28,429 nt of DNA from a virus. Both the position numbers and the translations under genes were made by a program. The stretch spans positions 1 through 28,429 of IMG/VR virus record IMGVR_UViG_3300032193_000308. One strand, 5' to 3'. Below the pieces are notes generated by a model that did not search any database, was not told the origin of the DNA, and saw only the letters and a list, made by a program, of their open reading frames with translations. This document shows, one piece after another, positions 1 to 26,010 of this stretch (positions are counted from its first letter, which is position 1; each line of letters opens with the position of its first letter).

Positions 1-3000
1 AAGAATCCAATATCTCTACCACACTTGCCCTCGTTAAAGAGAGGATTGCCGTAGTCATCAAGAACAGAATCGATTGCTGTTTGTCCATCAGCAAATGGAG
101 CTCCTGGTGTAACTTCAGACTGAACAGCATCAACAGTGATAGCAACTAAAGTCTGAATCGATGCTCTTACATCAGCACATTGCTGAAGACCATCAGATAC
201 ATCGTCTTGGATTTCTCCTGTAACAGTATCAGGAATAATAGTTAAATCTTTTCTGAATAAATTATTAGTTACTGCTAACTCCATTGTATCAGCAGCAGTC
301 TGGAATGCCGTGATTGATTCCTCGCCTTCGCCATCTAGACCAATGAATGTTCCGCTAGGGAAGTATGCTTGAGCAACTGCTTTGGAGTTTACATTACCTT
401 CATTGTATAAGTCATCACAAACACCATCAATTAGATATCCAAGGTCTCTCTTACACTTACCAATACCAGCATTGAAATCTCCATTGTTTACATATGGAAG
501 TAGATCTACATCACCAGCATCGATAGCTTCGGAGATAATAGTATATAGATTTTCAATAGTGTTCTGTACATCAGTACATGCTGTGGGGTCATTATTAGCA
601 ACATCTGGTTCACCACTACCAAACTCCGCTGGACCAGGAATAACAGTTACTGTGTCAGCAATCTGTTGGTTTGCTACAGATAGTTTTAAGAGATTTCTGG
701 CAAAGTCCCAAGCAAACAAAGATGCTAACTTAGCATCACCGGGAATACCATCTGCTATGGGAGCACCAAACTCATCAAAATAGTTGAGAACAAAATCTCT
801 GGAGTATCTGTTTCCTCTAGTGAATAAATCTAGAGCAATAGCATCAATGAAGTATCCGAGATCTCTACGGCACTTTGCCTCTCCTGCTGGTGATGTGTCA
901 ATTACCCATCCCTGAATACCTGCTTCAGTTACTGTGTTAGTGTATGCCTCGTTGATAATGTTGCCCTTGTTGAGACTAATTAAATAGTAAGCATCATAGT
1001 AACGAGCATTGAGAGGATTAGTCTCATCACCAGGGAACTGGAAGTTAGGTGTTCTATAATCAACAGCAAGTTGTGCTAGTGATCTATCAGCAATCTCATT
1101 CTTATTAATCTTGATTAGGTTAGAAGCATCCTGATATCTGCCTTGTGGTACGTTAGTCTCTGGTGGGATGTTAGCAAAACCGCTATTTGGAACAGAGATC
1201 TCGTCGTTCAATACATCCGTTACTATTGTTACTAAACTATTGAGAGTAGATCTAACGTCAACACAAGCAGTAGGATCTGTGTTGGGAACATCACCACCTG
1301 GATTTGCTGGGTTATAGTTTGGATTACCAGTAGCAACGTTTAAGTCTTGATACCATACTTCTCCTCTGTTAGTAGATTCGGTAATTAGGTTGTATGTACC
1401 GTTAGTTAAAACAGCAGAAGTTTGGTTAGCAAATGCTGCCGCCATTAAGTCTTCTACATTATTAAAGGCAATAATACTGGGAGCTTCTTCTCCATCAATA
1501 CCACCTGGATCTAAGAAGATTCCAGCGTCGTCGTAGTATGATAAGAGGAATTGTCTTGTGTAGTTGATAGCACCACCCAAGAATAGATCTAAAGATACAG
1601 CATCTAGGAAGAATCCGATGTCTCTCTTACATTTTTCTGGAGTTCCTTCTAGTGTGAATCCAGAAAGAACCATATCGTCATATGCTAACTCGACGATAGT
1701 AGTTCTATTTCTCTGGACCATCCTATAAGCATCTTTGTATCTAGAATACTGAGACTCTACGGGATCTCCTGGATAAGAGAAGTTTGTACCACCTACAGCA
1801 GTATCAGATGTTAAGGCAATCTCAGCAAGAGATCTATCTACAACTTCTCTACGGTTCTGTTGGATAAGACGATAAGAATCTCTGTATCTGGAGAATCTAT
1901 CTTCCTGATTAGATCCTGGGAAGAAGAAGTCAGGATGATCGATAGCAATCTCAGCAAGTGCTCTGTCCTGAATCTCTTCCATATTGGAGAAGATTAGGTT
2001 TCTGGCATCCTTCCATCTGCCAGACTCAGCAGGGGAGTCGGGGAATACAAAACGGTTGTTGCTTGTTCTGGTGATACCGTCTAAGTTACCAGGGGTAGCA
2101 TCACTACCGATTGCTTGTAGATAAATTAGTGTTAGTGCCCAGATAGCAGAAGCAACATCAGTACAACCAGCACCGTAATCAACAGCAGGTGTAGGTTCTG
2201 TTCTTGTAACTCCGGTTAAATCACCAACTCCAGCATCTGTTCCAATAGCATCGGTGATGATTGTCGTCAAGTCAGCGATCTTAGTTGCTTGAGCAACACA
2301 GTCTGGGTCAGCAGGATCAGGTAATACATAAGGATCAATAACCTGTGTGAATGTATTTTCTGTTCCGCTAATTGGGGCAACAGCGATGCCTCTCATTACA
2401 TCGATTGCTACATCTCTAGCATTCTCGTATACATTTACGGCTTCATCTCTTTCGGCATCTAGTAGAGTAGAAACTGCTTCACCGTTAAATGTTCCAGTTA
2501 CATATACATTAGCAGCATCGTATACTTTATCGTTACCACCATATGTTAGGTTGTAAATGATGGCATCTAATACGTCTAGTACATCATCAATACAATCTTG
2601 TGGTGTGCCTGTTCCTACAAATCCAGCAAATGCTGGGTTGGCAATCATTCTGTCGTAACCTTCGGCAGCAATGAAGTTTTTATTTCTTCTGATGAGATCA
2701 GCAGCTTCAGCAGATGTCTGATCAACGATTGCTAGAGGATCTAAAACAATAGTATTGTCGAATACTGGAGTGAGTCCATGAGCACCTTCAATGACAGCGG
2801 TGGCATCTTGTCTCATTACCTCCATCATTACATAGGCAACTTCCTGGTATACAATAGCGGAAGCATCTCTCTCGCCTGTAATGAGATCACCGTATTCTGG
2901 TCTTGTATATACTTCAGCGTAGTCAAATACTCTGTTGTTGCCATCATACTTCATGTTGAAAGCAACAGCATCGATGAATAGTTTTACGTCATCGATACAT

Positions 3001-3593
3001 TCTTGATTTCCGTTAGGAACAACAAATAGTGGATCAATTACTAGGTATCTTGCTAGTCCTCTTTCGAATCCTTCGTTAGCAATGTAATCAATATTGTTCT
3101 GGATAGTGTCATAGGCATCAATCCATCTGTTGCCTCTGGCATAATCCTTGTACTCAGTTAGAAGTTCTCCGACTACTTCATCCTGAATAAGTTTCTTGTT
3201 TAGTAGAATGTTGTTAGCACCGTCACATAACTTACCGAAGTATCCTCTTTGTGCTGTTCTTAGTGCTGCTCCGATAGATGCCTTTGCTGTCTCTTGACTT
3301 AAACCATCATTTGTATCGTCTCCGTCTTTGGATACAAATAATACGTTCTCAATCGTGAGAGATTTCCAAAGAAGTTTTCCTTCTTTATTAACTTTAAGAA
3401 ACTGTCCGTCTTCTCCAGTGCTACCTGTAGAGTCAATGATAGCGCCTGGTTGAATACTACCATCAATCAGCAATCGGTCAATAGATTCTTGACCAGTGGA
3501 AATGTCGAACAGATCCTGTGCTGTCTCATTAATCTTTACCCTTTGCTGTTCAAAGGTATCTGTTCTGAAAACTTCCTTACGATTAATTGCCAT
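1..3593 (-). CDS. Giant repeat-containing virion structural / fibre-like protein, C-terminus beyond window
   Basis: An open frame runs from ATG at 3593-3591 to the left edge (1197 codons plus two bases) with no stop, so the gene is cut by the window. It begins MAINRKEVFRTDTFEQQRVK, an N-terminus I associate with marine T4-like phage tail or fibre proteins. Around residues 83-110, FVSKDGDDTNDGLS followed by a short helix looks like the opening of a right-handed beta-helix protein. The rest is repeats. One kind has the pattern C-x-x-D-(I/L/V), then DA(V/I), then GN, near residues 196, 332, 652, 905, 1044 and 1189. A second has TACxDV or QQCADV near 772, 1001 and 1137. A third, DRSLAxxA...FPG...RYxDAYxxI, occurs near 540, 585 and 835. 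The start overlaps the preceding 66-residue gene by 11 bases, which suggests translational coupling; no clear Shine-Dalgarno precedes it. Virion role is inferred from context; the exact function is unknown. Confidence 0.85.
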   Translation of the reverse strand, partial: MAINRKEVFRTDTFEQQRVKINETAQDLFDISTGQESIDRLLIDGSIQPGAIIDSTGSTGEDGQFLKVNKEGKLLWKSLTIENVLFVSKDGDDTNDGLSQETAKASIGAALRTAQRGYFGKLCDGANNILLNKKLIQDEVVGELLTEYKDYARGNRWIDAYDTIQNNIDYIANEGFERGLARYLVIDPLFVVPNGNQECIDDVKLFIDAVAFNMKYDGNNRVFDYAEVYTRPEYGDLITGERDASAIVYQEVAYVMMEVMRQDATAVIEGAHGLTPVFDNTIVLDPLAIVDQTSAEAADLIRRNKNFIAAEGYDRMIANPAFAGFVGTGTPQDCIDDVLDVLDAIIYNLTYGGNDKVYDAANVYVTGTFNGEAVSTLLDAERDEAVNVYENARDVAIDVMRGIAVAPISGTENTFTQVIDPYVLPDPADPDCVAQATKIADLTTIITDAIGTDAGVGDLTGVTRTEPTPAVDYGAGCTDVASAIWALTLIYLQAIGSDATPGNLDGITRTSNNRFVFPDSPAESGRWKDARNLIFSNMEEIQDRALAEIAIDHPDFFFPGSNQEDRFSRYRDSYRLIQQNRREVVDRSLAEIALTSDTAVGGTNFSYPGDPVESQYSRYKDAYRMVQRNRTTIVELAYDDMVLSGFTLEGTPEKCKRDIGFFLDAVSLDLFLGGAINYTRQFLLSYYDDAGIFLDPGGIDGEEAPSIIAFNNVEDLMAAAFANQTSAVLTNGTYNLITESTNRGEVWYQDLNVATGNPNYNPANPGGDVPNTDPTACVDVRSTLNSLVTIVTDVLNDEISVPNSGFANIPPETNVPQGRYQDASNLIKINKNEIADRSLAQLAVDYRTPNFQFPGDETNPLNARYYDAYYLISLNKGNIINEAYTNTVTEAGIQGWVIDTSPAGEAKCRRDLGYFIDAIALDLFTRGNRYSRDFVLNYFDEFGAPIADGIPGDAKLASLFAWDFARNLLKLSVANQQIADTVTVIPGPAEFGSGEPDVANNDPTACTDVQNTIENLYTIISEAIDAGDVDLLPYVNNGDFNAGIGKCKRDLGYLIDGVCDDLYNEGNVNSKAVAQAYFPSGTFIGLDGEGEESITAFQTAADTMELAVTNNLFRKDLTIIPDTVTGEIQDDVSDGLQQCADVRASIQTLVAITVDAVQSEVTPGAPFADGQTAIDSVLDDYGNPLFNEGKCGRDIGF

Positions 3594-6700: not shown

Positions 6701-9700
6701 TAAAGTTTCTTTTGCTTCTGTTGCTGTTCTTCCAGAGGAGAAGAGTAAAGTCTTAGAACCTTCAGTGATTCTAACTTCCTCTTCTGCTGTATCATATATT
6801 ACTGTTTCTACATCACCAGTCCATCTTGTATTTAATCTTGGTGGAGCTCCAGCAGGAATCAATACGATACCACTTAAACTACCAGTAGAATCTGTTACCA
6901 ATTCATTGCCGAATGTAGAAATGGAGTTTCCAGCAATACCTGTATAGGAAGTATCAGGAGCAACCCATCTTCCGATATCTCTACCCTCTAGATATATGTA
7001 AATTCTTGTATTTGCTTTTAGGCGGTTTAAAGTAAACTTGACTGGAATAGACCTAGCAAAGAACTTAACGCCAGTAGATACTTCTCTGTTGTTGATGACA
7101 GCGGCATTTACACCCTTTCCTAATGTGTTGTTTTGTGGACTTACATTAGAAGAACTCGCTACTGTAGCAGCAGTAGTGGACGAGTTGATGTCTTCTGTAT
7201 TAACATCAGATAGAGAGTTGATGTTGAATAGAGATTTATCGTTTCCGGTCCAGTTTGTGATATAAGAATCAAAAATACTAGATAGAGATTCCTTTGGATT
7301 TTCCTTTGCTAGTAAGATAGAGTTTAGTTTTGTATTTGTATCAACTACAATAGGTTCAACTGAATCGTCATACCACTGGTCGATTGTTGGAGATAGATTA
7401 GCGTCACCTACGTATTGGAGAACTACAAAAGGATTTGGGTTGATAGTCTTAGTAGCATTATCATTACCCAATAACCTTTGTTCGGTATATGGCAACGTAA
7501 CCACGCCATTGTTTATGGTATAACCAGAAATGATTCTTTGATCTTCTCTGGTATTAACTTCTCTTAATACAAAACTGTCTTCTTTTGCTTGTGGTCTAAG
7601 AACCGACTGCTGGGAATCAATAGCACATTGATAATCAATAGAGTTTAAGTTACCAACCGAATGCTCTTCAAAAGCATCTACAAAGAAACCAGACTTAAAC
7701 CTATCAATACCTACACTATCCTTGATCTGCATGTTCAATGCTTGCTGCTCAAGGATGCTCAGGGATGTATAGAATTCTAGACGCTCAATACGTTTCTCTA
7801 GTTTTCCAATATCTCTCATGGTATAACGTCTGTTATCCACAGGGATAATCCTTACATCTTTAGTGCTGTTTGTGAAAGCAGGAATATGTAAGTAAGAAAG
7901 AGCAATCGAATCATCGATCAATTCTGGTCTTGATGGATTTAGAGAAGAGTTTCCTTTCTTAACAACAATGTCTCCTCTCTTTGTTAAGAAAACACCATCC
8001 ATTCTATCTAAGAATTGCTTCTCCGTAAATGTAAACGTAAATTCTAAATTAGAATCTACAGCAGGGGTGAACGAAGGAATACCGCCAGAACCTGTGAAAC
8101 TGACAGATATCTCATCACTTAGAATAGATTGATCTTGGAATCCGGAAATTGTTGTAGTGGAATCTACTTTAGGTCTGAAATCAATTACATCTTTTAAATT
8201 TACTGTACCAAATACAGAAGAATTAAACAGTGGAATATCACTAGATACAACACCAGCCTGATGGACATAAGAATCTACCGTACAGAAATCTCCTAGAGAA
8301 TGCTCGAAGTAATCGAAAGCAATTAGCAACTGACCTTCTGGGGCATCAAATCCTGGTTTTAGGATAATTCTAGATACATCATATAAAGTATCTCTTTGAC
8401 CATTGTCGAATGTATACTTGTATGTAATGTCAGTTCCACTTACGATAACGCCATCAGCATCCGCCTCGGGTGGGTTTGAAGTAGTTCCTTCATATACATA
8501 TCTTAATTTGAAGGCATCGGAGTAAGTGACTGATTCGATAACATCAGAATCATAGTCAACACCACGGAAAGGAATTACTCTATCACCACCAGAAACTACA
8601 ACAATTCTTCTATTACGGATAGCAGTCTTTAATCTTGGTCTTGCTTTGCTGACTTCAACCGTAGCAGTTAATTTTACCTTAGGGAAGATAGTAATACTTC
8701 CTTGACCTTCTCCTAAGAAGTAACTAACTGGTAGTGTGAGTGTTAAAGAACCAGAAGTTACGTTATTAGTTGTAACTGTTCCAGAATTAATCTCTACAAA
8801 TTTTGGATCTACATAGATAATGTCTCCTGTTTCTACTGCTGTAGAGTCTCCGGCATCTAGAATAGTGAAGATGTAATTCTCTTCGGTATACCTTACAAAT
8901 CTTTCTGTTCCTGATTGTAACTGAGCACTAAAGGTTACGGTAGAACCGCTGGCGTTTAGTTCTGTGATAAAATCTTTTCTTACATAATACTGGAATCTTG
9001 TATCTGCTGTGTCATTTACAAGAGATGCTACCTGCTTACTTCCTGTTGGGAAGAGCAAACTAGACTTAGTTACATTATCGATTTTAGGTCTTACTCTAAC
9101 TACAGTGGCATTAGTTACATTTCCCTTCAAAGCATAGTCTAGATAAATTCTAGCTTTGGTTGTACCACCTGAATCAGAAACTGATTGTACAATATTCTGG
9201 ATAGTCTCTCCGGCATCATCAGTATATTGAATCAAATCTCCAGGAACTACAATTTGGTTTAAGTCTGTAGCAAAACCATTGTTGACTAAGAACTTAGTTC
9301 CTCTTTCTCCAGTAAAGGTAAAATTAGTAATCTGGATAGTTTCGGCAAAGTCAGTAGAGGATTTATCAATATCTGCCGTAAACTTATATGAGTCATATAC
9401 AGATTCAAATGATTTTACATTCTGATTTGTATATGTTAATACTGTATTCTTATTAAGAACTGGCGTAATTCTAGCAGTAGTGGAAGCACCTACGTCTTGG
9501 GATAAAGTAATTACTGGTGGGGTAGTATACTTAGTTTTTACAAAGTTAGAGTTGATAATTTCAACGTTGAATATCTTACCACCTTGAATTCTAGCTTCAA
9601 TGATAGATCTATCAAAGACTCTACCATTAATAATAACATTTAGAGGGGAGTTAGTGCTACTAGCATATCCATCTCCTCTATTAGTTACGACAAAGTGAGA

Positions 9701-13986: not shown

Positions 13987-16900
13987 TTACCCGATTGTTC
14001 TTACGTAAGACTCTGTGGCATCGTGTGTTTGGGCGGTTGTTCCACCTACACCTCTTGTGATTCCGGTTAGTTGATTTCCGGAAATACCTGTGTATTCGAT
14101 TTGTTCTAAAGTACCATTAACAGCGTCACCAATTAAGATTGTACCGCTGGTTGGCCATGCTAGATCGGCAAGATTTCCTCCTACATTGAGAGTAATACTT
14201 GTGGTTTCCGTGTCAAGAAGGTTGCCCTGTAGCGTTCCACCAACTTCATTAATTGAAGGAATTGCTAGGTTGAACATATCTCCATTTGGTCTTCTGCTAG
14301 ACTCTTCTCTCAATTCAAATTCTTGAATCTCGAAGTCATCTAATAGTTGAGCAATAGAAGCGTTTAGTTTCAACGAACCGTTGGAAACGAAAGCATTGGA
14401 CTGGAACTGTTCGTAGTTTGGTCCAAGTGTTGTTCTTCTGTAAACAGAATCCAACTCATCGGCAATAGCATCAGCAACACCGTTGACAATTCTCTGTACG
14501 ATGATGAGAGATTGCTCGGTGAAGATTGGTTGACTTACATCAGCATTGACCTCTACGATAGTTACAACCTCACGGTCACTGGAAGCAAGGGCGAGGTTAT
14601 CATTGGTTCCGTATGTGGACTCAAGACCTGCTGGTGTGAATCTGATGTATTCCTGGAATATAGTTGCCTGTACATCGAGTTCAACAGAATCAACAATGTG
14701 AACAATCTCGATGTCTGTTGTGATAGGTTCGAAGGCAGTAACAACGGTAACATCAACGATGATTGGTGGATCCTCTCCAGATCCTTCATCTGGGATAGAA
14801 TCCAAGTTGAGGGTGACAGCAATGGGAGATCCGCCAATAAAGGTTCCGACAGATTCAGAAGGCGTGACGACAATCTCCTGGAAGATTGTTGCTTGTACGT
14901 CAATCTCAATCGTCTGATCTCTAGTGAGTTCAAGAGTAACTGTCTGGACAGTAGCATCTCTCTCCTCAATCTCCTGTGGAGGTGCCTGTGTGGGTTGATT
15001 ATCACTACCACCAGGAACAGTCTCAGTGAAGAATACTTCAACACTGACATTGACAGGCATTGCTGGTACAGCATAGAATCCTTCGGATTCATCTAATACT
15101 AATGGATCATCAATTAGATAATGCTGATTAGGATAGAATCTGGATATTTGCTTGGTGATGCCAAGAGTTTCTCCAGCTGATGCTTGAGGAATTACTTCAC
15201 GTAGCATCCAGAATACAGCATTCAACTCATCACCTTGGAATGGAGTTGCTAGTTCTAAGAATGGAATTCCTCTTTCGTCTACAGGGAACTCACCATCTCT
15301 TTCTTCAGCACCACCGGACCATAGATAGACATACTTAGTAACTTCAAATTCACTATCAACAACAGAAGTCTGAGGACCAAAGTCGATGAAGTATTCCTGA
15401 CCATTGATCTTAGATCCTGCTATGAGGATTATAGTTTTAATTTCTTGAACAGAATCGGCATCTACTTGAGGTTGAATAATAAACGTATTGTTATCTTCAA
15501 CTGTAAATGGCGATCCTGCTACTACTTCTGGTTCAATAGGCTTGAGGTTTACATATTCAAACTCAGTAGCGCCCAAGAATACAGAATCAACGACAATCTG
15601 TAGGGTAGATACAACAGCATCTTCTTCGATTTCTACAACCTCGGCACCAAGAACCTCAGTAAGAACTCCCTCAATAAGGATCTGTTCTACTGGGTTGATG
15701 ATAAGAACAATCTCGGTTTCGGTTAGTGTTACTTCAGCTAACTCTTCATTCTCAATAATACGCTTCTTAAATCCAAATTCAGGAGCAATATTGATTAGAC
15801 CAGGATCAATTTGTGGTTGTAAGATGAGTTCATTATCCTGAAGAACTACATCGCTCATTCTTACATCAGGAATGTTGTCAAAATCAGTCCAAACAGGAAT
15901 AATTCTGGCATATTCCAACTCAGTAGTTAGAGCACCAAAGATAACATCCTCTAGTAGATAACGAGAAATAATCTGATCTTCAGTATCAATAGCAACTACA
16001 GAATCAAATGCCTTCTCGTATGGTAATGTTCTGACCCAATGGTTAGAAATATCATTTGGAATATTACCAAATTCAATAGATGTTGGGAGGATGTTAATGA
16101 TACGTGTTGTGGTATCTAAGGCATCAGTAACAACTACATCTGGTTCTACAACAGTTACAAACTGATCTTCAGTATCGATAGTAACTACAGAATCAAATGC
16201 CTTCTCATATGGTAGTGTTCTGATCCACATCTCAACATCTACGTTGAGAGGAGCAGTTCTCTCATCGATAAATCTGATGATCTCCTCTACAGGATCAAGT
16301 TGTACAGGAATCTGAGTAATCTGTAGATATCCATCAGGTAGAGATACAGTTACTGGTCTGGATGCTGCTTCCTGGAATGAAGTAGAGATGAATCTTCTGA
16401 TCTGAAGTTCATCGACAAAGAGATCAGTGACACTACCTGCTACTGGTGATCCAAAGTCAGCAAAGTTGAAGCTTACATCATCATCTTCGAATGTTCTGAT
16501 CCACTGAGCAATATCAACATTAAATGGTGCCTTTCTAGCATCTTCGAATCTGATAAAGATTGGATAACTAAATTGTTCGTAGTAAGCAGCAGTAACAGAT
16601 CCTCTTGGTTCGAATACTCTTGTTCTAGTATTGTCAATAGTTAAATCATTATCAAAGAAGATGAATAGTTCGACTGGGTTGACAATACCAGGAACAACAA
16701 TAATACCACCAGTTTGTAGTTCAATACTAATAGATTCAATACCAATATTGATAGGATGTAAGTAAATTTCTTGCTCAAGAATACTCCAAGAATTATCTGG
16801 TAGTCTTACAGATTGATCTGCTGGTTGAATCCACTGAACTACGTCATCAGTAGAGATAAACGCTCTTACTTCTTCGGGTCCTATTACATCAAAGAATCTA

Positions 16901-19900
16901 GTAATCTGCCAGTTGACATCAGCAACCTTGGTGAAGATCTTAGGTACTAACTCGTAGTTAATAACACCAGCTCTTTCATTTCCAAATATATCGAAATTGG
17001 TTACTAGATTTGCTAATATAGGTTGAGATTCTAGTTCAACCTTAGTAATAACCTCACGCTCAGCGGTCTCTGCCATTCTGACAGCACCGAAGAAGAAGAA
17101 TGGATCAACACCAGGAGGTGTGATCTCTTCAATAATAATGTCAATATCAGCCTGAGCGTTAGAGATAGAGAAGTCAGGTTCGAGACTTACAAGATCTCCA
17201 ATGAAATGATCTGCTTCTGTAGTATTCTTGGATCCTCTCTCAGTGATATAGAAACGATCTGTTTCCTTTGTTAAGTATTCTACCTTCTCAAAGTTAACTA
17301 CTAATGTGCCTTCATCAGGGAATCCATCAGTATTAGTTACATATAGAATAGAGTCTCCAATTAAGAAGTCACCAGAGATGAGAGCATATCTAGTAGAAGG
17401 TTGTGGGCTAGCAGATAAGAAGAAATCATCCGCTTCAACTAGGTACTGTGTAATAATACGAGTATCATCAAATGTTGCTTCTACATCTTGTACAGTTTGA
17501 ACTTGCTCGACGAGTAAGAATTCTTGTCTACTAAAGTTAGTAAAGATCTGAATATTATCAGTAATACTATCGATGACATAGATAGTGTCTTGAGATCCAA
17601 CATTGAGGTTAGCAGATACTAGAACGTCATCTACAGGAAGTTGAACAGTTATCTGCTGGAAGCTAATGGGATTATCAACAGCAAGGAAGAGGAATGTCGA
17701 GAATGTAGAAACTCCTGCTTCAGGAGCAGTAAGAATATTGACAATCGAACTGATCGTAATAGCTGTGTTACTAACCTTAAGATCAAGATTAAGATAACTT
17801 AATGAATCAATTTTCCTATTTGGATCCTTGATTAATTCGTATGGTTTTGCTACAACAACTGTAGGTGGTTCTTCATAACCATACCCGCCTTGCTCTAGAT
17901 TTACACTAAAGACTTCTTTGATAAAGGTTACATTTGCCCTTGCTCCACCACCAGCTGGTGTTTTTGGAATGAAGTAAATTTGTGGTGTTTGTGTATAATC
18001 AAATACAGTATTTTGGATGATTTGTGTAAATTCATCATTCCATACTTTCTTATTCCAGATAAGATCTGTTACAGTACCGTTTTCGTCAATTTGAGCATAG
18101 ATTGATAATCCCTGACCTAACTGGGGACCATTATAAGATGTAGCCTGAATATCAACATAGTGATCTTTAGTGATCAGTTCACCGGCATTAAACTGAGTTT
18201 TGCCAGCAAATCTAGGAATTTCTAATACTTCCCTATACTTGTTCTCACCCGCTATTTTGATTTTATCCTTTGGATGTAGATTAGCGAATGCCTTCGTTCT
18301 CTTATAATAGGCATTGTCATCTCTGTCTCCATTTAACCAGTATGTTGTATTTCTTCTTAGTTGATTACGACCATCTACCGACTGTGGTTCCGAAGTAGTA
18401 ATGGTGGGGAACTCATTAGCCTTAATTGTATAAGACTGAACATCTCTAGTAGTAAATCTATAGTTATTTCTAACAATGAAGATTTTATCAGAAAGATCAA
18501 ACCAGTTTTGATTTGCTTCTACTCTTAGACTAATCTCACCTAACTCACCTCTTGCTGACTTAACTCTTCCTAATGGGATCTCATTGCCACCAGCAGTTTC
18601 GTATTCTCTAGCGATAATAGAAATTTGGAACTCAATATTATCACCTAGAGCAGGTAGTGGATTGCCAGGTACAGGGTCAAATCCAATAGTTTCTACGATG
18701 TCTCCATCTTGATAACCAGTACCATAATCTTCTACTCCAAATTGTCCGGTAATTTGAGGATTAAGACTTAAATCAGTTACAAATAATCCGGTTCCGTACT
18801 GTCCCTCTGGTCCATTAACGATATCTAAAGTTCCTGTGTTGGTAGGAGCAGCGGTGTTGGTGTAAGTAATTTGATCACCAACTACTGCTTCGGGGAATAC
18901 AATAAGTTCTACAAAAGCAAAAGCATCTACTCCTGCTTCCCCTACTGATGTAACATTGATACTAGTTGGATCAGCTACATTGTCAAATCCCAACTCAACC
19001 CCTAGCATCGAAGGGTCACCTACTTCAAAACGGTATGTATTTCCTGGCGATACAGGGATATTTGAAAGTTCAACAGGTGTACCATCACTTTCAAGGTTTC
19101 CACCATTGAGAGTGATAAGATATCCATTAGTTGGCTGGTTGTATAGAGGAACTCTATAACTTAGTTGACTCCCGATATATTCTGATGGAGCATTTGTTAC
19201 CGTGAAAGTTCTTCCGATTACCCACTCTTCGAAGATGCCACTTCTGTCATAAGCATATAGTTCAGTACGCTCACCTTCTCTTAGTGCTTTTCTTGTTCTA
19301 TACCAGTATTCAAAATCATCACCCCATACTTCAGGTCCAGTTAGGTCAATGGTGACATCTCTAAGGTAAGTATCTGGTTCAAATTCATGTAGAGTAAGAG
19401 TTTGATCTACAGTTCTACCATAAACATAGATAAGTTCAATAGTTGGAGGAATAAGAGTTCCATCTGCTTCTCTAGCAAACGGTAAGTCAGTTCTGAACGA
19501 AAGTTGAGATCCAAAAATAGTATAAGATTTTTCTGGAATCTGTAAAATACTGTTTACAAAAACAATAGCATAAAGAGAATCTGGTACATTAACTACAGTT
19601 CCGTCAATACTATTTGTAATGGTAAATGGTCCTTTTGGTTGACGAGGAATAAGCGTCTTGTTAACTGATGCTGTGAAATAATTACCAATAGTATAGATGT
19701 AACACTGCTGTCCATTTCTTAGTACAGAATCTTCTCTAGGATCCTCGGAATCATAAAGAGCATCTTCAACTTCTGGTTTAGACTTAAATTGAATCTTGTC
19801 TGGAGTAGAAGGATCTTCATATCTTAAAATTTCATATGCTTCACCATAACGTTGCTTGACTCCATCAATAACAACGATCAGTAGTTCATTTTCATCTGTC

Positions 19901-22900
19901 TTGGCAATAGATCCGTCATCATAATATAAGTCAAAGTCACTTCTAATATTGTCAAACTGATCACTAATATCCTGGAACTTTCTTAAATACTGATCATTTA
20001 GATCTGTCGAAGCATACTTAAGAGATTTACCATAGAAATTCTGACCATCTACTTCTTGTCCTTCGGCAATTCTAGGACCTAGTGGAGGTTCGTCAAATAT
20101 AATTTGATTGCCTACAGTGGTATATGCTACTCCTGGTTCTTGGATGATACCATCTAGAGTAATTAAAAGTTCTACATCATTGTGTGGTACAATCTGCTGA
20201 TTAGATCCTACCTCAAACATAGAGAACTGTGTAGTTCCTGTTCTCTTAAATGTATCTAGATCTAAGACTCCATCAAACTCAGGTTCTAGTCTGACTTCTC
20301 TAAAGAAGGTATCTGATAGATTAACATCGGAAATAGAAATACCACCAGCACCTCTAACAACATTAGAGTCTCTAACAAGAGCAACAATTTGAGTGATCTG
20401 CCTTTTAGTAACAATACTATCCAAAGCTTGAATAGATACATTCAAGCTACCAACAGATTCTATTGATGGTGCCACCTCTGGCATTGGTCCAGCAGCAGAT
20501 GTAAAGACATTAACTTCACCAAACAACTCAAATCCAGCTGGGTGAGTTGTCTCAAGAATTAGATCTCTCCATCCATCAATAGGAGTCTCGGATTCTACAA
20601 CATAAGAATAATCCTGGTAGAAATAAGAATCTTGAAGTCTGTTAACACTTTCACTAATCTTACCTTTAGATGAGGCAAATGCTCCAGATTCTCTGTAATG
20701 CTTGACTTCTTCTACAAAATCTGTAGAAAGAACATATTTTACTACTGGTTTGAAATCACTAAAACCTTCAATTTCTTTGCCAGATACAAACTCTCCTTCA
20801 ACATCTGTAATTTTTAAGATGTTGCTTCCCTGTCTGTAGTATTTTCCGTCTAGTTTTGCCTTGGCACCGGTAGATGGTTGTGTAATTTCTAGACCAGGAA
20901 CAAATAGATCAGCATTTTCTAGAACTAAGATAGTGCTGCTAGCAAAAGATGGAGTTGTGGAATAGTCATTAGTAAATCCAAGTCCACCAAAAATAATATC
21001 TACGTTTTTAGGTAGACCAATATTATCAGACTCATAGTATGCTACTAAGTCTGTTTCGATAATGTTGAAAGATGCTTCGGTGTATCCTCTACCTCCATCA
21101 TCAACAGTAGCACCTACAATACTTCCGTTAAGTACAGTAAGTCTAACTTTAGCACCAGATCCATCACCGGTAATAATTAATTTTGGAGATACATAACCAC
21201 TACCGGCATTATCTGTTAAAACATTAACAATACTACCGTTTTCTACAACAGGGGTTAGAGTTGCTCTGTTATCTTTTCTTGGGTTTGCTCCAACAATAAG
21301 AGGAACGGTCAACAATGATCTACTGCTATTGAGAATATCTACGGTATTAATCTCACCAAAAGCACTTAAAGAATCTGTTGTGTATGTTATATCACCGGAA
21401 CCGTCATACTCAACAATGGAATCTAAATCATAAACTAGTTTTGTATTTGTCTTATGGGTTACCTTCTTTCTACCACTTAAAGGATCTCTAACAATAGAAA
21501 GTCTAGCATCTTCGGTATCTACACCAGATGCTTTGATGAAGTAATAGAACGTATCATAACGTAAGGATACTCTCTCCGGATCGACCTGATCAATCTCTGG
21601 AGCAAATCCAAATCTAATAGTTGTAAATGATCCAGGATTACCTGGAGCAATATTGCTAGTTACCTTACCATCTACTAAGATGTTTAAGTTGACACTTGGG
21701 GAAATGTCAATAAACGTATCGAGCATAGAGAAATGACTAGTATCAAATCTATACTTGTAATATCTCAATACATCAAACGATGGGTTTACTGTGAAGTTGT
21801 TTTCATCGTCTTTAGATAGTTCTAGTTTGTATGATGCTGTTTCTACATTCCTTAAGGCAATTACCTTTCTTGGCGAACTTTGATCAAAGAAAGTAGTTTG
21901 TTGACCTACTCTTCTGATCTGATCAATATCATCAGCATAATCATATGAAATCTTTGTAAGACCAGATTCTACATCATATTCTTCTAGTGTAGGTGTTAAA
22001 GATTCCTGTCCTAAGAACTTGTAACCTTGATTAAGTCTAAATGGGATCTCTTCTCCAATGACTTCATTTCCATCGTAATGATTTGTAGGAATAGTTCCTT
22101 TTCTTCCTCTGCTTACGTTTACAAAGTTCAAAGCGAGGTTTACACCAAGAACTTCGACGATCTCATCCCCAATTTGGATAAAATCACCATTAGATAGGTT
22201 ATTGAGATTAGAGAGATAGAGATTGTTGTTATCCTCAGCAAATCCTACATGATCTACAACAAAAGCAAATCTATTTGGATTGTTAGTGTCAAGATTAATA
22301 ATAGGAGCACTTTCCACAAACGTTATGATATCGCCCTTTCTATATCCAGCACCCTTTGTCGTAACAGTAACAGAACTTACAGATCCAGCACCGCCTGCTC
22401 CGGATACAACAATAGTTGCTCTAGCATTGAATGGATCTCCTGGTTTTCCTAATCCTTGTCTAGCAGAGTCTTGATCTCTAAAGACTAATTCTACATCAAG
22501 ATAGGTTCCAGAGATATAGGTTTCACCCGTATTAATTACATCTCCACTACCAATACCAGTGTCAGTAATTACAGACTTATGATCTACTGGGATAGTCTCG
22601 AAATTTTGATAGATCTTCTTTCTGACAAAGTAAGTAGTCTCTGTAGTAGCTTCATCTGGGTTGATATCAATATCAATAAAATCACCAACAGATACACCAT
22701 GATCTTCGGCAGTTTCCAAGATAGCAATAGAGTCATTAATTTCGAAGACAGGAATATCTGTACTTAAATCAATGACAGAAATGACTTCGGATCTAGAAGT
22801 ATCAGATAATACGCTACTCTTCAAGAAATACTCATCTCCAGTAACAAATGTACCAGAAAGTACCTTAACAGTGACAGCATTCTGTGAAACAGTCTCTTCC

Positions 22901-25900
22901 AAGACTTCTCCAGTAGCTACAACTGTTTGTGCCTCAATATCAATCAAACTTACTGTAGCACCTAGAGTATAGGTAGAAGAGGAATCTAGAACAAACCTTT
23001 GAACCTTAGTAAGAGACGAAATGAGGTCTGTTGTATTAAACTGTCCCTGAATATCTCTTAAGATGAAGTTATTTCTATTAACTGTACTGGTTACAATTTT
23101 TCCAGTAGCACCTTGAGGTTGTTGTACGATGATATCATCGGCAAACAAATACACATTACTAGATGTAGTTATTTCTAGTGCTTTAGTTTGTTCGGATTCA
23201 ATCCCAACAACAGATTTACCTTTTACGGAAGAAACAGAAGAAGATACTAAGTTTCCTTCTGAAATAAGTTCAGAACCTACTTCGAATGTGGGAGCAGATG
23301 AAACTACAGAAACATTCTTTACATTACCAGCAGAAACATCTTTGATCCTACCTACAAATCCATCACCGTTACCATCAAAATCAGGAGAGTTTAATCTCTT
23401 AACCTGTTTTGGAATATCTTTCTGGGAGATAGTGGAGTTGTAGTTAGAATCTACAGGAATAGAGTAGAAATTCTCGCCTAAGATATATGGAAATTGAGGA
23501 GTTTGATCCTGATCCATAGTAACAAAATAAGCGTATACACCATCTGGATAATCTGGTGTTACACAGAATCTACCATTGTTTTGGTCTAACTCTGTCTTTT
23601 CACTATTAACAGAAGGAACCCACTCATAATCATCAACAAAAGTTCCTAATACAAACTCGATGATAGTAGGTCCATTAGGTCTAGATGTCTTTAGTCTATA
23701 TCCAGACTCTAATCTACTAATAGCAGAAGAGCTGTCTAGGGGATTAGAATATCCATATGGACCATAGATGGGATTACCATCATAGGCATAACCTACGATA
23801 GGAGAGTGCTGAATAGGACCCTGCTCTTCATATACTGTGTTGATGCTATCAAGTAATCTTCTTCTCAATACCTTAGGGTTAGCAACTACACCATAACCGT
23901 AAGAAATGTTAAATTTAGATTGGAAGACGTAAGAGTTATTAACGTCAAGCAAACTATTTAATAAAAAATATCTATCTTTGGTCCATCTTCTTACTTTAGC
24001 AGTTGCTGTAGCTCCGGAACCATTTGCTACTGCTACTACAGACGTAAATCTAGCATCATATAACTTACCACCAGAAACTTTTACTAGATCTACAATTTGT
24101 CCATTTTCTACAGATGCTTCATACTCAGCAAAGTTTCCTCTGCCGGTGATGTCGGTGATTATAATTCTTGGTGGGAAACTATAATACTGTCCTGGGTTGT
24201 CGATAGCAATACTAGTAATCTCTCCGTTTGTTACAACAGCAGATAATCTTGCCCCTTCTCCGGAAGTAATTCTTACAGCAGGATCTTCCTCATATACAGA
24301 AGTATCTGTAATTTCAATACTACCTACAGTTTCTCCAGACAAAACAGAGAATGCCTTATTTGGTTCTTCATTGATAAGAACAATAGGAGGAACTTTATAC
24401 CCTCTTCCCTTGTTATTGATGCTTACACTATCAATAAGACCATAAGTAATCTGCTCTTCTGACCTGTTACTATAAACAGGAGTACCATCAACTAAGATAC
24501 CAACATCTTTGTTACCAGTGCTGTATACCTCTGTTGTGGTAATAGGTTGCTTTCTGATTAACTTAAGAAGTTCTTGATCTTGGAGATCCTGTGTAATACT
24601 AGGAGTTAATAGAATCTGATCTGATGGGAAAGACGAAGAACAGATATAGAAATACTGATCATCCTCAAAAATAGCACTTACATCAGCAACAACATCATCT
24701 AACTGGATTTGTGGATGAATACTATTTGGTTCTACGTAAGTGGTGTTTAGTAACCATCTAACTTCATTGTCTACATTCTTAATTACAGGAGATGCTGTAT
24801 CAAATCCATTCGAACCAACTTCAATTTTGTCTCCAGTAGAAGCATATGGTTGAGGATTTTTTGGTAGAAGGTTGAAAACAACACCTTCGATCAAGAACTC
24901 AACATCGCCACTAGATACAGGATTAGCGGAATATACTTTAGTTCCTGGTTGGTATACAACAAAGGTATCATCTTTCTTTTGGATCGTAAACTGGTTTACA
25001 GTTTTCTTAGAATACGAAATCTCTTTGTTGTCAATAAACAACTTACCGACCTGTGGAAAACCTTGAGTGGAGAATACTGTAATCTTATCACCTTCACCAT
25101 CAGTGGGTCTGAATGCTCTTTTTAGTTCTGTCTTCGAGGCAATCTCAAACTCACCGTTGATGGTATCGGGAGCAATGATTAATGTGTTATCAATTACATT
25201 ATCAACAACAGCAGTGACACCTCCCTGTGTGATTACATTGCCAATAAGACTTTGAGGATCACCAGAGATGGGTACAATACGAATAGTATAGTTAAACTGC
25301 CAATCAGAAGTAGAAGCTTTAAAGGTATAATCCTTAGGAGCGTATGTACTTACTGCCTCATCTGGGTTAGCAGAGATAATAGTCTTGAATAAGAACTGAA
25401 TAGAGCGATCTGTTCCTTTTGCTCTGTAGAAATCACCAATGTTCTTAATTAGAGTTCTCTTATCAATCTCTCCACGTAAAAACTTCTCTGGGAAAGATGC
25501 TAAGTATTCAGATTCAAAATTCTTAACAAAGGCATATAAGAACAGGTTACTGATGTTTAATACTTCATCACCTGTAACATGCTCCGATGCTTCGGTAGTT
25601 ACAAACTCACTTTTAGTGTATAGATCCCCTAGCGTGTTATTTCCACTAACGCCACGGGATACTTCTAGAAATTCTGTGTTAGTTCTTTCTTTGTAAAAGC
25701 AAATTTCATTACCAATCTTGATATATCCGTTCTTCTCTGGAAATGAAGTTGCATCTTCTACTACAATACTTGTAACATTACTAGCAATGTTGGATGTTAA
25801 AGTAGATTTTTCAGTTAATATCTCTTTACTATAAAAATCAATATTACGATACTGTGTAATATTGTGAATAATATCTAAAGGTTGCCCACGAAGTTCCTGC

Positions 25901-26010
25901 TGCTCATAGTATTTCTCTATGAACGTTTTAAACTTACTATAATCCTCAATGATAAATCCAGGTAACTGGCTTTCAATTAAGGTTGAAATATTTCTCGTCT
26001 TAGCAGCCAT
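13987..26010 (-). CDS. 4007-residue giant baseplate/virion structural protein with YHYH domain (gene 7 position)
   Basis: A continuous 4007-codon frame between gp6 and gp8, where T4 encodes wedge protein gp7 (about 1,030 residues). The first 240 residues (LIESQLPGFIIEDYSKF; later LIKNIGDFYRAKGTDRSIQF) match large structural proteins of marine T4-like phages. A YHYH domain spans about 735-825: YAYDGNPIYGPYGY, then DDYEWVP, NGRFCVTPDYPDG and VYAYFVT. THPAGFELFGEV follows near 1817. A beta module (FPxxGxIxI..E.I.Y...RG...H..G..V) recurs near 88, 312, 1268, 2888 and 3953. GxGY repeats occur near 531, 603, 1214, 1595, 1634, 2424 and 2704. Three 'DGxxQxxxxxY' repeats lie near 1947, 2040 and 2147. 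Residues about 2700-3850 are acidic, lysine-poor and unrecognised. A wedge role is inferred from position; homology to T4 gp7 itself is unproven. It starts 7 bases after the gp6 stop. Confidence 0.9.
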   Translation of the reverse strand: MAAKTRNISTLIESQLPGFIIEDYSKFKTFIEKYYEQQELRGQPLDIIHNITQYRNIDFYSKEILTEKSTLTSNIASNVTSIVVEDATSFPEKNGYIKIGNEICFYKERTNTEFLEVSRGVSGNNTLGDLYTKSEFVTTEASEHVTGDEVLNISNLFLYAFVKNFESEYLASFPEKFLRGEIDKRTLIKNIGDFYRAKGTDRSIQFLFKTIISANPDEAVSTYAPKDYTFKASTSDWQFNYTIRIVPISGDPQSLIGNVITQGGVTAVVDNVIDNTLIIAPDTINGEFEIASKTELKRAFRPTDGEGDKITVFSTQGFPQVGKLFIDNKEISYSKKTVNQFTIQKKDDTFVVYQPGTKVYSANPVSSGDVEFLIEGVVFNLLPKNPQPYASTGDKIEVGSNGFDTASPVIKNVDNEVRWLLNTTYVEPNSIHPQIQLDDVVADVSAIFEDDQYFYICSSSFPSDQILLTPSITQDLQDQELLKLIRKQPITTTEVYSTGNKDVGILVDGTPVYSNRSEEQITYGLIDSVSINNKGRGYKVPPIVLINEEPNKAFSVLSGETVGSIEITDTSVYEEDPAVRITSGEGARLSAVVTNGEITSIAIDNPGQYYSFPPRIIITDITGRGNFAEYEASVENGQIVDLVKVSGGKLYDARFTSVVAVANGSGATATAKVRRWTKDRYFLLNSLLDVNNSYVFQSKFNISYGYGVVANPKVLRRRLLDSINTVYEEQGPIQHSPIVGYAYDGNPIYGPYGYSNPLDSSSAISRLESGYRLKTSRPNGPTIIEFVLGTFVDDYEWVPSVNSEKTELDQNNGRFCVTPDYPDGVYAYFVTMDQDQTPQFPYILGENFYSIPVDSNYNSTISQKDIPKQVKRLNSPDFDGNGDGFVGRIKDVSAGNVKNVSVVSSAPTFEVGSELISEGNLVSSSVSSVKGKSVVGIESEQTKALEITTSSNVYLFADDIIVQQPQGATGKIVTSTVNRNNFILRDIQGQFNTTDLISSLTKVQRFVLDSSSTYTLGATVSLIDIEAQTVVATGEVLEETVSQNAVTVKVLSGTFVTGDEYFLKSSVLSDTSRSEVISVIDLSTDIPVFEINDSIAILETAEDHGVSVGDFIDIDINPDEATTETTYFVRKKIYQNFETIPVDHKSVITDTGIGSGDVINTGETYISGTYLDVELVFRDQDSARQGLGKPGDPFNARATIVVSGAGGAGSVSSVTVTTKGAGYRKGDIITFVESAPIINLDTNNPNRFAFVVDHVGFAEDNNNLYLSNLNNLSNGDFIQIGDEIVEVLGVNLALNFVNVSRGRKGTIPTNHYDGNEVIGEEIPFRLNQGYKFLGQESLTPTLEEYDVESGLTKISYDYADDIDQIRRVGQQTTFFDQSSPRKVIALRNVETASYKLELSKDDENNFTVNPSFDVLRYYKYRFDTSHFSMLDTFIDISPSVNLNILVDGKVTSNIAPGNPGSFTTIRFGFAPEIDQVDPERVSLRYDTFYYFIKASGVDTEDARLSIVRDPLSGRKKVTHKTNTKLVYDLDSIVEYDGSGDITYTTDSLSAFGEINTVDILNSSRSLLTVPLIVGANPRKDNRATLTPVVENGSIVNVLTDNAGSGYVSPKLIITGDGSGAKVRLTVLNGSIVGATVDDGGRGYTEASFNIIETDLVAYYESDNIGLPKNVDIIFGGLGFTNDYSTTPSFASSTILVLENADLFVPGLEITQPSTGAKAKLDGKYYRQGSNILKITDVEGEFVSGKEIEGFSDFKPVVKYVLSTDFVEEVKHYRESGAFASSKGKISESVNRLQDSYFYQDYSYVVESETPIDGWRDLILETTHPAGFELFGEVNVFTSAAGPMPEVAPSIESVGSLNVSIQALDSIVTKRQITQIVALVRDSNVVRGAGGISISDVNLSDTFFREVRLEPEFDGVLDLDTFKRTGTTQFSMFEVGSNQQIVPHNDVELLITLDGIIQEPGVAYTTVGNQIIFDEPPLGPRIAEGQEVDGQNFYGKSLKYASTDLNDQYLRKFQDISDQFDNIRSDFDLYYDDGSIAKTDENELLIVVIDGVKQRYGEAYEILRYEDPSTPDKIQFKSKPEVEDALYDSEDPREDSVLRNGQQCYIYTIGNYFTASVNKTLIPRQPKGPFTITNSIDGTVVNVPDSLYAIVFVNSILQIPEKSYTIFGSQLSFRTDLPFAREADGTLIPPTIELIYVYGRTVDQTLTLHEFEPDTYLRDVTIDLTGPEVWGDDFEYWYRTRKALREGERTELYAYDRSGIFEEWVIGRTFTVTNAPSEYIGSQLSYRVPLYNQPTNGYLITLNGGNLESDGTPVELSNIPVSPGNTYRFEVGDPSMLGVELGFDNVADPTSINVTSVGEAGVDAFAFVELIVFPEAVVGDQITYTNTAAPTNTGTLDIVNGPEGQYGTGLFVTDLSLNPQITGQFGVEDYGTGYQDGDIVETIGFDPVPGNPLPALGDNIEFQISIIAREYETAGGNEIPLGRVKSARGELGEISLRVEANQNWFDLSDKIFIVRNNYRFTTRDVQSYTIKANEFPTITTSEPQSVDGRNQLRRNTTYWLNGDRDDNAYYKRTKAFANLHPKDKIKIAGENKYREVLEIPRFAGKTQFNAGELITKDHYVDIQATSYNGPQLGQGLSIYAQIDENGTVTDLIWNKKVWNDEFTQIIQNTVFDYTQTPQIYFIPKTPAGGGARANVTFIKEVFSVNLEQGGYGYEEPPTVVVAKPYELIKDPNRKIDSLSYLNLDLKVSNTAITISSIVNILTAPEAGVSTFSTFLFLAVDNPISFQQITVQLPVDDVLVSANLNVGSQDTIYVIDSITDNIQIFTNFSRQEFLLVEQVQTVQDVEATFDDTRIITQYLVEADDFFLSASPQPSTRYALISGDFLIGDSILYVTNTDGFPDEGTLVVNFEKVEYLTKETDRFYITERGSKNTTEADHFIGDLVSLEPDFSISNAQADIDIIIEEITPPGVDPFFFFGAVRMAETAEREVITKVELESQPILANLVTNFDIFGNERAGVINYELVPKIFTKVADVNWQITRFFDVIGPEEVRAFISTDDVVQWIQPADQSVRLPDNSWSILEQEIYLHPINIGIESISIELQTGGIIVVPGIVNPVELFIFFDNDLTIDNTRTRVFEPRGSVTAAYYEQFSYPIFIRFEDARKAPFNVDIAQWIRTFEDDDVSFNFADFGSPVAGSVTDLFVDELQIRRFISTSFQEAASRPVTVSLPDGYLQITQIPVQLDPVEEIIRFIDERTAPLNVDVEMWIRTLPYEKAFDSVVTIDTEDQFVTVVEPDVVVTDALDTTTRIINILPTSIEFGNIPNDISNHWVRTLPYEKAFDSVVAIDTEDQIISRYLLEDVIFGALTTELEYARIIPVWTDFDNIPDVRMSDVVLQDNELILQPQIDPGLINIAPEFGFKKRIIENEELAEVTLTETEIVLIINPVEQILIEGVLTEVLGAEVVEIEEDAVVSTLQIVVDSVFLGATEFEYVNLKPIEPEVVAGSPFTVEDNNTFIIQPQVDADSVQEIKTIILIAGSKINGQEYFIDFGPQTSVVDSEFEVTKYVYLWSGGAEERDGEFPVDERGIPFLELATPFQGDELNAVFWMLREVIPQASAGETLGITKQISRFYPNQHYLIDDPLVLDESEGFYAVPAMPVNVSVEVFFTETVPGGSDNQPTQAPPQEIEERDATVQTVTLELTRDQTIEIDVQATIFQEIVVTPSESVGTFIGGSPIAVTLNLDSIPDEGSGEDPPIIVDVTVVTAFEPITTDIEIVHIVDSVELDVQATIFQEYIRFTPAGLESTYGTNDNLALASSDREVVTIVEVNADVSQPIFTEQSLIIVQRIVNGVADAIADELDSVYRRTTLGPNYEQFQSNAFVSNGSLKLNASIAQLLDDFEIQEFELREESSRRPNGDMFNLAIPSINEVGGTLQGNLLDTETTSITLNVGGNLADLAWPTSGTILIGDAVNGTLEQIEYTGISGNQLTGITRGVGGTTAQTHDATESYVRTIG
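15973..16038 (-). repeat. Internal duplicated segment, second copy in protein order
   Basis: These 66 bases match 16162-16227 at 61 positions, with a 189-base (63-codon) offset. They encode WVRTLPYEKAF and the following SVVAIDTEDQ, near residue 3325 of the giant protein. Three of the five differences are synonymous, which points to recent duplication or purifying selection. Confidence 0.9.
16162..16227 (-). repeat. Internal duplicated segment, first copy in protein order
   Basis: Partner of the copy at 15973-16038. It encodes WIRTLPYEKAF and then SVVTIDTEDQ, near residue 3262. The offset is an exact multiple of three, so the frame is kept. Weaker versions of the WIRT/WIQP element occur near residues 3058 and 3170, so this is the freshest pair of an older repeat series. 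Confidence 0.9.

Follow-up and report, generated by a model that had tools for sequence, protein, structure and literature searches.

The tail-fibre gene and its repeat units

The window, by which we mean the whole 28.4-kb stretch of DNA that was analysed, is a fragment of a T4-like cyanophage, with genes including those for baseplate gp25, gp6, a gp8-like protein and a DUF4815 protein. At its low end lies a partial tail-fibre gene (positions 3 to 3593, minus strand), an open reading frame encoding the first 1197 residues, the remainder lying beyond the contig end. The product matches PHROG 4527 (short tail fiber protein) with an E-value of 4e-189 and PHROG 5342 with 5e-58, which places it in the T4-like cyanophage tail-fibre family. 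The cyanophage tail-fibre proteins of these two PHROGs are the same protein family as the window protein and their entries mention neither a repeat nor a resemblance to phycobiliproteins.

There are 13 cysteines in the 1197 residues, and 11 of them fall within two cysteine-containing elements that form a repeat. Neighbouring proteins in the window are cysteine-poor, with four in 4007 residues, two in 2698 and one in 663. The 4007-residue protein (13,987 to 26,010, minus strand), whose gene is flanked by those for the gp8-like protein and gp6, contains no unit of the repeat, and a search of it against NCBIfam gave no match.

The first element, C-x-x-D..DA..GN, occurs six times, at C199, C334, C655, C908, C1047 and C1191, the last copy being truncated. 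Successive first cysteines are separated by 135, 321, 253, 139 and 144 residues. The second element provides C432, C777, C1006 and C1139, which are 98, 122, 98 and 92 residues past the first cysteine of the same unit; with an additional GCTDV at C477 this element is present four to five times. An earlier note on this DNA had counted at least six copies of the first element, as is the case. Its spacings of 136, 139, 145 and 253 residues are right to within one residue, but that of 321 was overlooked, and the second element, which it correctly saw in the last two full units, also occurs at C432, C777 and C477.

All units lie on the minus strand, the boundaries being taken from matches to a unit HMM except where stated. 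Unit 1 (2799 to 3020, residues 192–265) carries C199, lacks a second cysteine and, like unit 2 (2235 to 2609, residues 329–453, C334 and C432), is a CxDD variant. Units 3, 4, 5 and 6 have CXRD at the start of the central helix. Unit 3 (1200 to 1649, residues 649–733 and 747–798) contains C655 and C777. Unit 4 (507 to 1016), defined by the HMM match at residues 900–1029 and the helices of an AlphaFold model, is complete with its own leading helix and contains C908 and C1006. Unit 5 (114 to 485, residues 1037–1160, C1047 and C1139) is abbreviated, the helix that precedes it being the CTDV helix of unit 4. The start of unit 6 (3 to 50, residues 1182–1197, C1191) is cut by the contig end; the unit continues in the complete relatives L011 and L013. 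Ahead of units 3 and 4 a leading segment, R[YW]xDAxxLIxxNxxEIxDRxLAxIAxxxPDFxFPGD, is repeated two to three times about 43–49 residues apart: three of these 'DA' helix segments occupy 1644 to 2018 (residues 526–650) and two occupy 885 to 1139 (residues 819–903), both sets on the minus strand.

Six close relatives of the window were recovered from IMG/VR. The gene is complete in relatives L011 (2509 residues) and L013 (2512 residues), with about ten units each. A long C-terminal part devoid of units follows the last one in both. Judged by eye, L011 from about residue 1970 and L013 from about residue 1975 have the look of a parallel beta-helix (FVKSGVYTEQTPI.LPPNTGIFGDNLRDVSIYPSD...).

Conservation and distribution of the unit

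A unit alignment was built from eight cyanophage isolates and 86 viral-contig loci. The consensus of the leading helix is R[YF]xDxYRLIQxNKxEIVxxAW and that of the central part is KCxRDxGYFVDAISLDxFxGGNxYSRxFxxxYFDxxGxPISNGLxGEExxSxxAFNxARDLMKxAxTNQL; about 30 residues further on there is a helix beginning DPxxCxDVQxxIxxLxxIVT. The central helix of a typical unit begins K-C-x-R-D-[IL]-G-[YF]. Two types can be distinguished: a complete unit brings a leading 'DA' helix of its own, and an abbreviated one is preceded by the CxDV helix of the prior unit.

The unit HMM identifies 665–736 domains in the fetched loci, the upper figure upon iteration of the HMM, and C-to-C spacings peak at 130–139 residues (157 of 495 intervals). 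The first cysteine and its aspartate are each about 99% conserved, at a mean pairwise identity of only 34% between dereplicated units. This cysteine is found in 241 of the 244 dereplicated units and CxRD in 210, and both cysteines are present in 181 of 191 units with both columns readable. The profile, the peaked spacing and the conservation confirm that the repeat proposed from the window alone is genuine.

How widely is the unit distributed? Among 50,697 phage records, 359 contain the consensus unit, and the names of these are all Synechococcus, Prochlorococcus, 'Cyanophage' or 'Marine'. None was found in the plasmid collection searched, nor in T4, P-SSP7, Pelagibacter phage HTVC008M, P-SSM2, S-CREM2 or P-TIM68. 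In the phage genomes examined the unit-bearing frames are large and of fibre or baseplate type, not a free small protein.

Relationship to phycobiliproteins

In Pfam the window protein matches a single family, PF00502 (Phycobilisome), that of phycocyanin, phycoerythrin and allophycocyanin subunits. The score of 23.8 bits (cut-off 22.2, E 4.8e-5) is summed over the whole protein and no single stretch exceeds the cut-off by itself; the best stretch comprises residues 870–941 (771 to 986, minus strand). Scores above the cut-off are also obtained for L011 (36.9 bits) and DSL-LC03 (27.6 bits), with weaker matches in 12 of 14 phage records, every one inside large open frames. Of 47 units considered individually, 15 hit PF00502 at E<0.01, and none has a match to a different Pfam family. 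NCBIfam gives only sub-cut-off matches to phycocyanin alpha and one unrelated weak match. A match of L013 to PF07209 (DUF1415, E 0.001) is below the cut-off and was rejected as chance, as were the remaining weak Pfam matches.

Searching 177,635 PDB sequences with a profile of the 47 units returns phycobiliproteins as all of the best 60 matches, with a top E-value of 1.9e-4. A profile of abbreviated units finds phycobiliproteins more weakly, via the CXRD helix only, together with one unrelated entry at E 0.18. For HMM-HMM comparison with hhalign the reference consisted of phycocyanins from 80 cyanobacterial loci. The unit scores 50.4 against phycocyanin alpha (probability 94) and 46.7 against all phycobiliproteins, whereas 100 column permutations reach 22.0 at most, the reversed profile 15.6 and seven unrelated families no more than 15.1. 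The match to phycocyanin beta subunits alone is weak (probability 3.9). The signal is strongest in the 24-column CXRD helix, weaker in the leading helix and absent from the second half; the leading helix on its own scores 21.9, above the 16.5 that its best permutation reaches, with its register unchanged.

Unit and phycobiliproteins therefore share the CXRD helix, GG at +18/+19 of the cysteine, a leading helix in matching register and a predicted all-helical fold of about 165 residues. There are also differences. The phage units are arranged in tandem inside one giant virion protein, and the N-terminal 40 or so residues of phycobiliproteins, the X-Y hairpin region used in alpha-beta assembly, have no counterpart in the unit: the profile alignments are confident from the A/B helix onwards, at around phycobiliprotein residue 40, and nothing earlier is matched. 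The conserved D, N and Y of the phage unit are absent from phycobiliproteins, and the columns concerned (D at +14, N of GGN, Y and N) equal the CXRD triad in conservation. Outside light harvesting there are further relatives of phycobiliproteins, some with CXRD and some that bind bilin without a lyase, but by their description these are stand-alone cellular proteins in bilin gene clusters.

Predicted fold

Template-free AlphaFold modelling of residues 845–1190, covering two units, gives an almost entirely helical structure (pLDDT 85, pTM 0.79). Phycobiliproteins make up 49 of the best 50 PDB fold matches to this model, nearly all at probability 1.00, with target-normalised TM values up to 0.79, whilst the Foldseek E-values are weak, the best being 0.03. 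Modelled in isolation, the abbreviated unit reaches a lower confidence (pTM 0.63) and finds no phycobiliprotein fold match. That this unit folds like a phycobiliprotein independently is accordingly not supported, and the modelling speaks for the full fold only where a unit has a leading helix or stands in tandem. It thus lends support to a predicted globin-like, all-helical fold where the leading helix belongs to the unit itself.

The possibility that the resemblance reflects chance, or convergence upon one short amphipathic helix with a cysteine, deserves mention. The sequence signal is mostly within about 24 columns, the isolated abbreviated unit lacks a match, amino-acid similarity also enters the Foldseek score and the motif may pull AlphaFold towards this fold. 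Set against this, the leading helix offers separate support in an unchanged register, the TM values quoted extend over whole domains and three different searches return one family. We regard chance or convergence as most improbable.

The unit is clearly real and widespread, with a clear relationship to the light-harvesting protein family, and the repeats are very probably divergent members of the phycobiliprotein, or bilin-binding-globin, superfamily placed in tandem in a giant cyanophage fibre. A light-harvesting protein fold would thus have been taken over as a module of virus fibres, in hundreds of the cyanophages that have been sequenced. The earlier note was accurate in describing, for a virion protein, a helical unit of about 130–140 residues that has two conserved cysteines, and the fold it proposed to predict is now modelled for two units; the phycobiliprotein resemblance went unrecognised. 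We found no earlier report of the repeat or of this resemblance in the literature searched, which largely leaves out subscription papers, such that absence there is no proof. Full-length homologues already described as having the repeat were likewise not encountered within the searchable scope, and homologues in the databases carry no annotation beyond 'tail fiber' or 'structural protein'.

Location in the virion

In phage S-SZBM1 all seven unit matches fall in one frame of 6619 residues. That is the length given for S-SZBM1_208, for which 71 peptides were detected in purified virions (PMC9146016), and the unit-bearing protein is therefore present in S-SZBM1 virions. The virion location is shown for this one relative.

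This location bears on the idea that the domains mimic host phycobiliproteins so as to engage lyases, linkers or the antenna while the phage infects or is assembled; any pigment would then be incidental, or there would be none. The confinement of the unit to cyanophage and marine phage records, and its likeness to a major host protein, are in keeping with mimicry. Yet the carrier is a large virion component, the units occur in large fibre or baseplate-type frames instead of a free small protein, and no host partner is known. Mimicry is accordingly a very unlikely explanation.

The cysteines, bilin and CpeT

Cyanophages carry genes for bilin synthesis and attachment. In phycobiliproteins CXRD is the motif in which a linear tetrapyrrole (bilin) is joined to the cysteine and held by the other two residues (PMC10151467). 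Cys-84 is the conserved bilin site of all phycobiliproteins and extra sites evolved near position 150 (PMC2327270). The beta-subunit Cys-155 is served by T-type lyases (PMC2327270), bilin attachment at beta Cys-153/155 being carried out by cellular enzymes of this type (PMC2327270, PMC10452541).

The earlier note implied a disulfide between the two cysteines of the unit. This is not the best-supported role and we rejected it as the main reading, since the first cysteine belongs to the CXRD bilin-attachment motif and occurs without the second, for example at C199. When full-length sequences are aligned at low stringency, the second cysteine comes to lie at the position of beta Cys-155, where the last helix starts. 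With the C-terminal half alone 7 of 100 permutations were as good, which is not significant, and the residue was not accepted as a proven beta-155 equivalent.

Phage CpeT (PF06206) is a relative of the T-type bilin lyases and a candidate partner of the fibre units; the role of the phage gene has been called unresolved in the literature (PMC3037559). Ignoring kinship between phages, cpeT is present in 15 of the 20 unit-bearing phages and in none of the six that lack units, and a Fisher test on the first 25 genomes, again ignoring kinship, gives 0.0026. Five phages have units with CpeT undetected, and P-SSM2 has a bilin reductase and no units. In five genomes cpeT stands shortly before a unit-rich fibre gene. 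It ends 0.3–2.0 kb ahead of that gene in S-CAM4, S-RIM32 and ACG-2014h, the cpeT-like genes of these three being located at 8637–9161 in L002, 9409–9942 in L005 and 7442–7972 in L008. In S-PM2 and S-WAM2 one fibre frame has its first units starting 1.8 and 3.4 kb past cpeT, respectively. In P-HM1 and P-HM2 cpeT and units are far apart. No CpeT was seen on the relatives closest to the window, which are fragments.

These observations suggest a scheme in which fibre units would bind bilin made by the host, or made with the phage bilin reductase where there is one. Attachment would be autocatalytic or would depend on a lyase from the host or the phage; among these CpeT may have a role in loading the units. 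The infecting particle would thereby carry pigment on its fibre. That at least some units hold a covalent bilin seems to us evenly balanced between true and false.

Alternatively, the domains may be derived from phycobiliproteins and now act as rigid helical fibre modules without pigment, the cysteines serving in folding, or in disulfides within a pair or from one unit to its neighbour, or being ancestral. The presence of both cysteines in nearly all readable units (181 of 191) fits such modules, as do the equally conserved D at +14, N of GGN, Y and N, which lack phycobiliprotein counterparts. Giant structural paralogues of gp7 type in P-SSM4 (L188), P-RSM4 (L189), Syn9 (L190) and S-RIM2 (L191) bear the unit with a degraded motif, the arginine being mostly replaced (CxTD, CxDD), and in the P-SSM4 units that were read the cysteine is lost. 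We counted both features against pigment, because the fold is therefore able to serve without bilin. A structural cysteine explains less well why the arginine is retained, why the first cysteine is kept where the second is absent (C199) and why cpeT co-occurs with units. Such purely structural modules are a serious contender, judged at a little under an even chance. We favour a pigmented fibre over purely structural reuse of the fold, whilst recognising that the choice is close to an even one.

Light and adsorption

If bilin is bound, virus particles may carry a light-absorbing pigment. With a phycobiliprotein-like, possible bilin acceptor in the virion, the role of phage cpeT and light-dependent adsorption both become directly testable. 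Jia et al., in 2010, reportedly included S-PM2 among phages with light-dependent adsorption. Adsorption in the light only is documented for some cyanophages: P-HM2 is unable to adsorb in the dark whereas P-SSP7 is able to infect in the dark (PMC7112961). P-HM2 (NC_015284) has five units and CpeT; P-SSP7 (NC_006882) has neither. This contrast would fit virions that are chromoproteins, with fibre bilins that are loaded with the aid of CpeT and gate adsorption by absorbing or sensing light. It is a comparison of two phages from different families and therefore only a lead. We consider a light-related function of the fibre units unlikely on present indications, and gating of adsorption by such chromoproteins somewhat more doubtful still. 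Transcripts of P-HM2 have been measured in dark infections in another study (PMC5082946).
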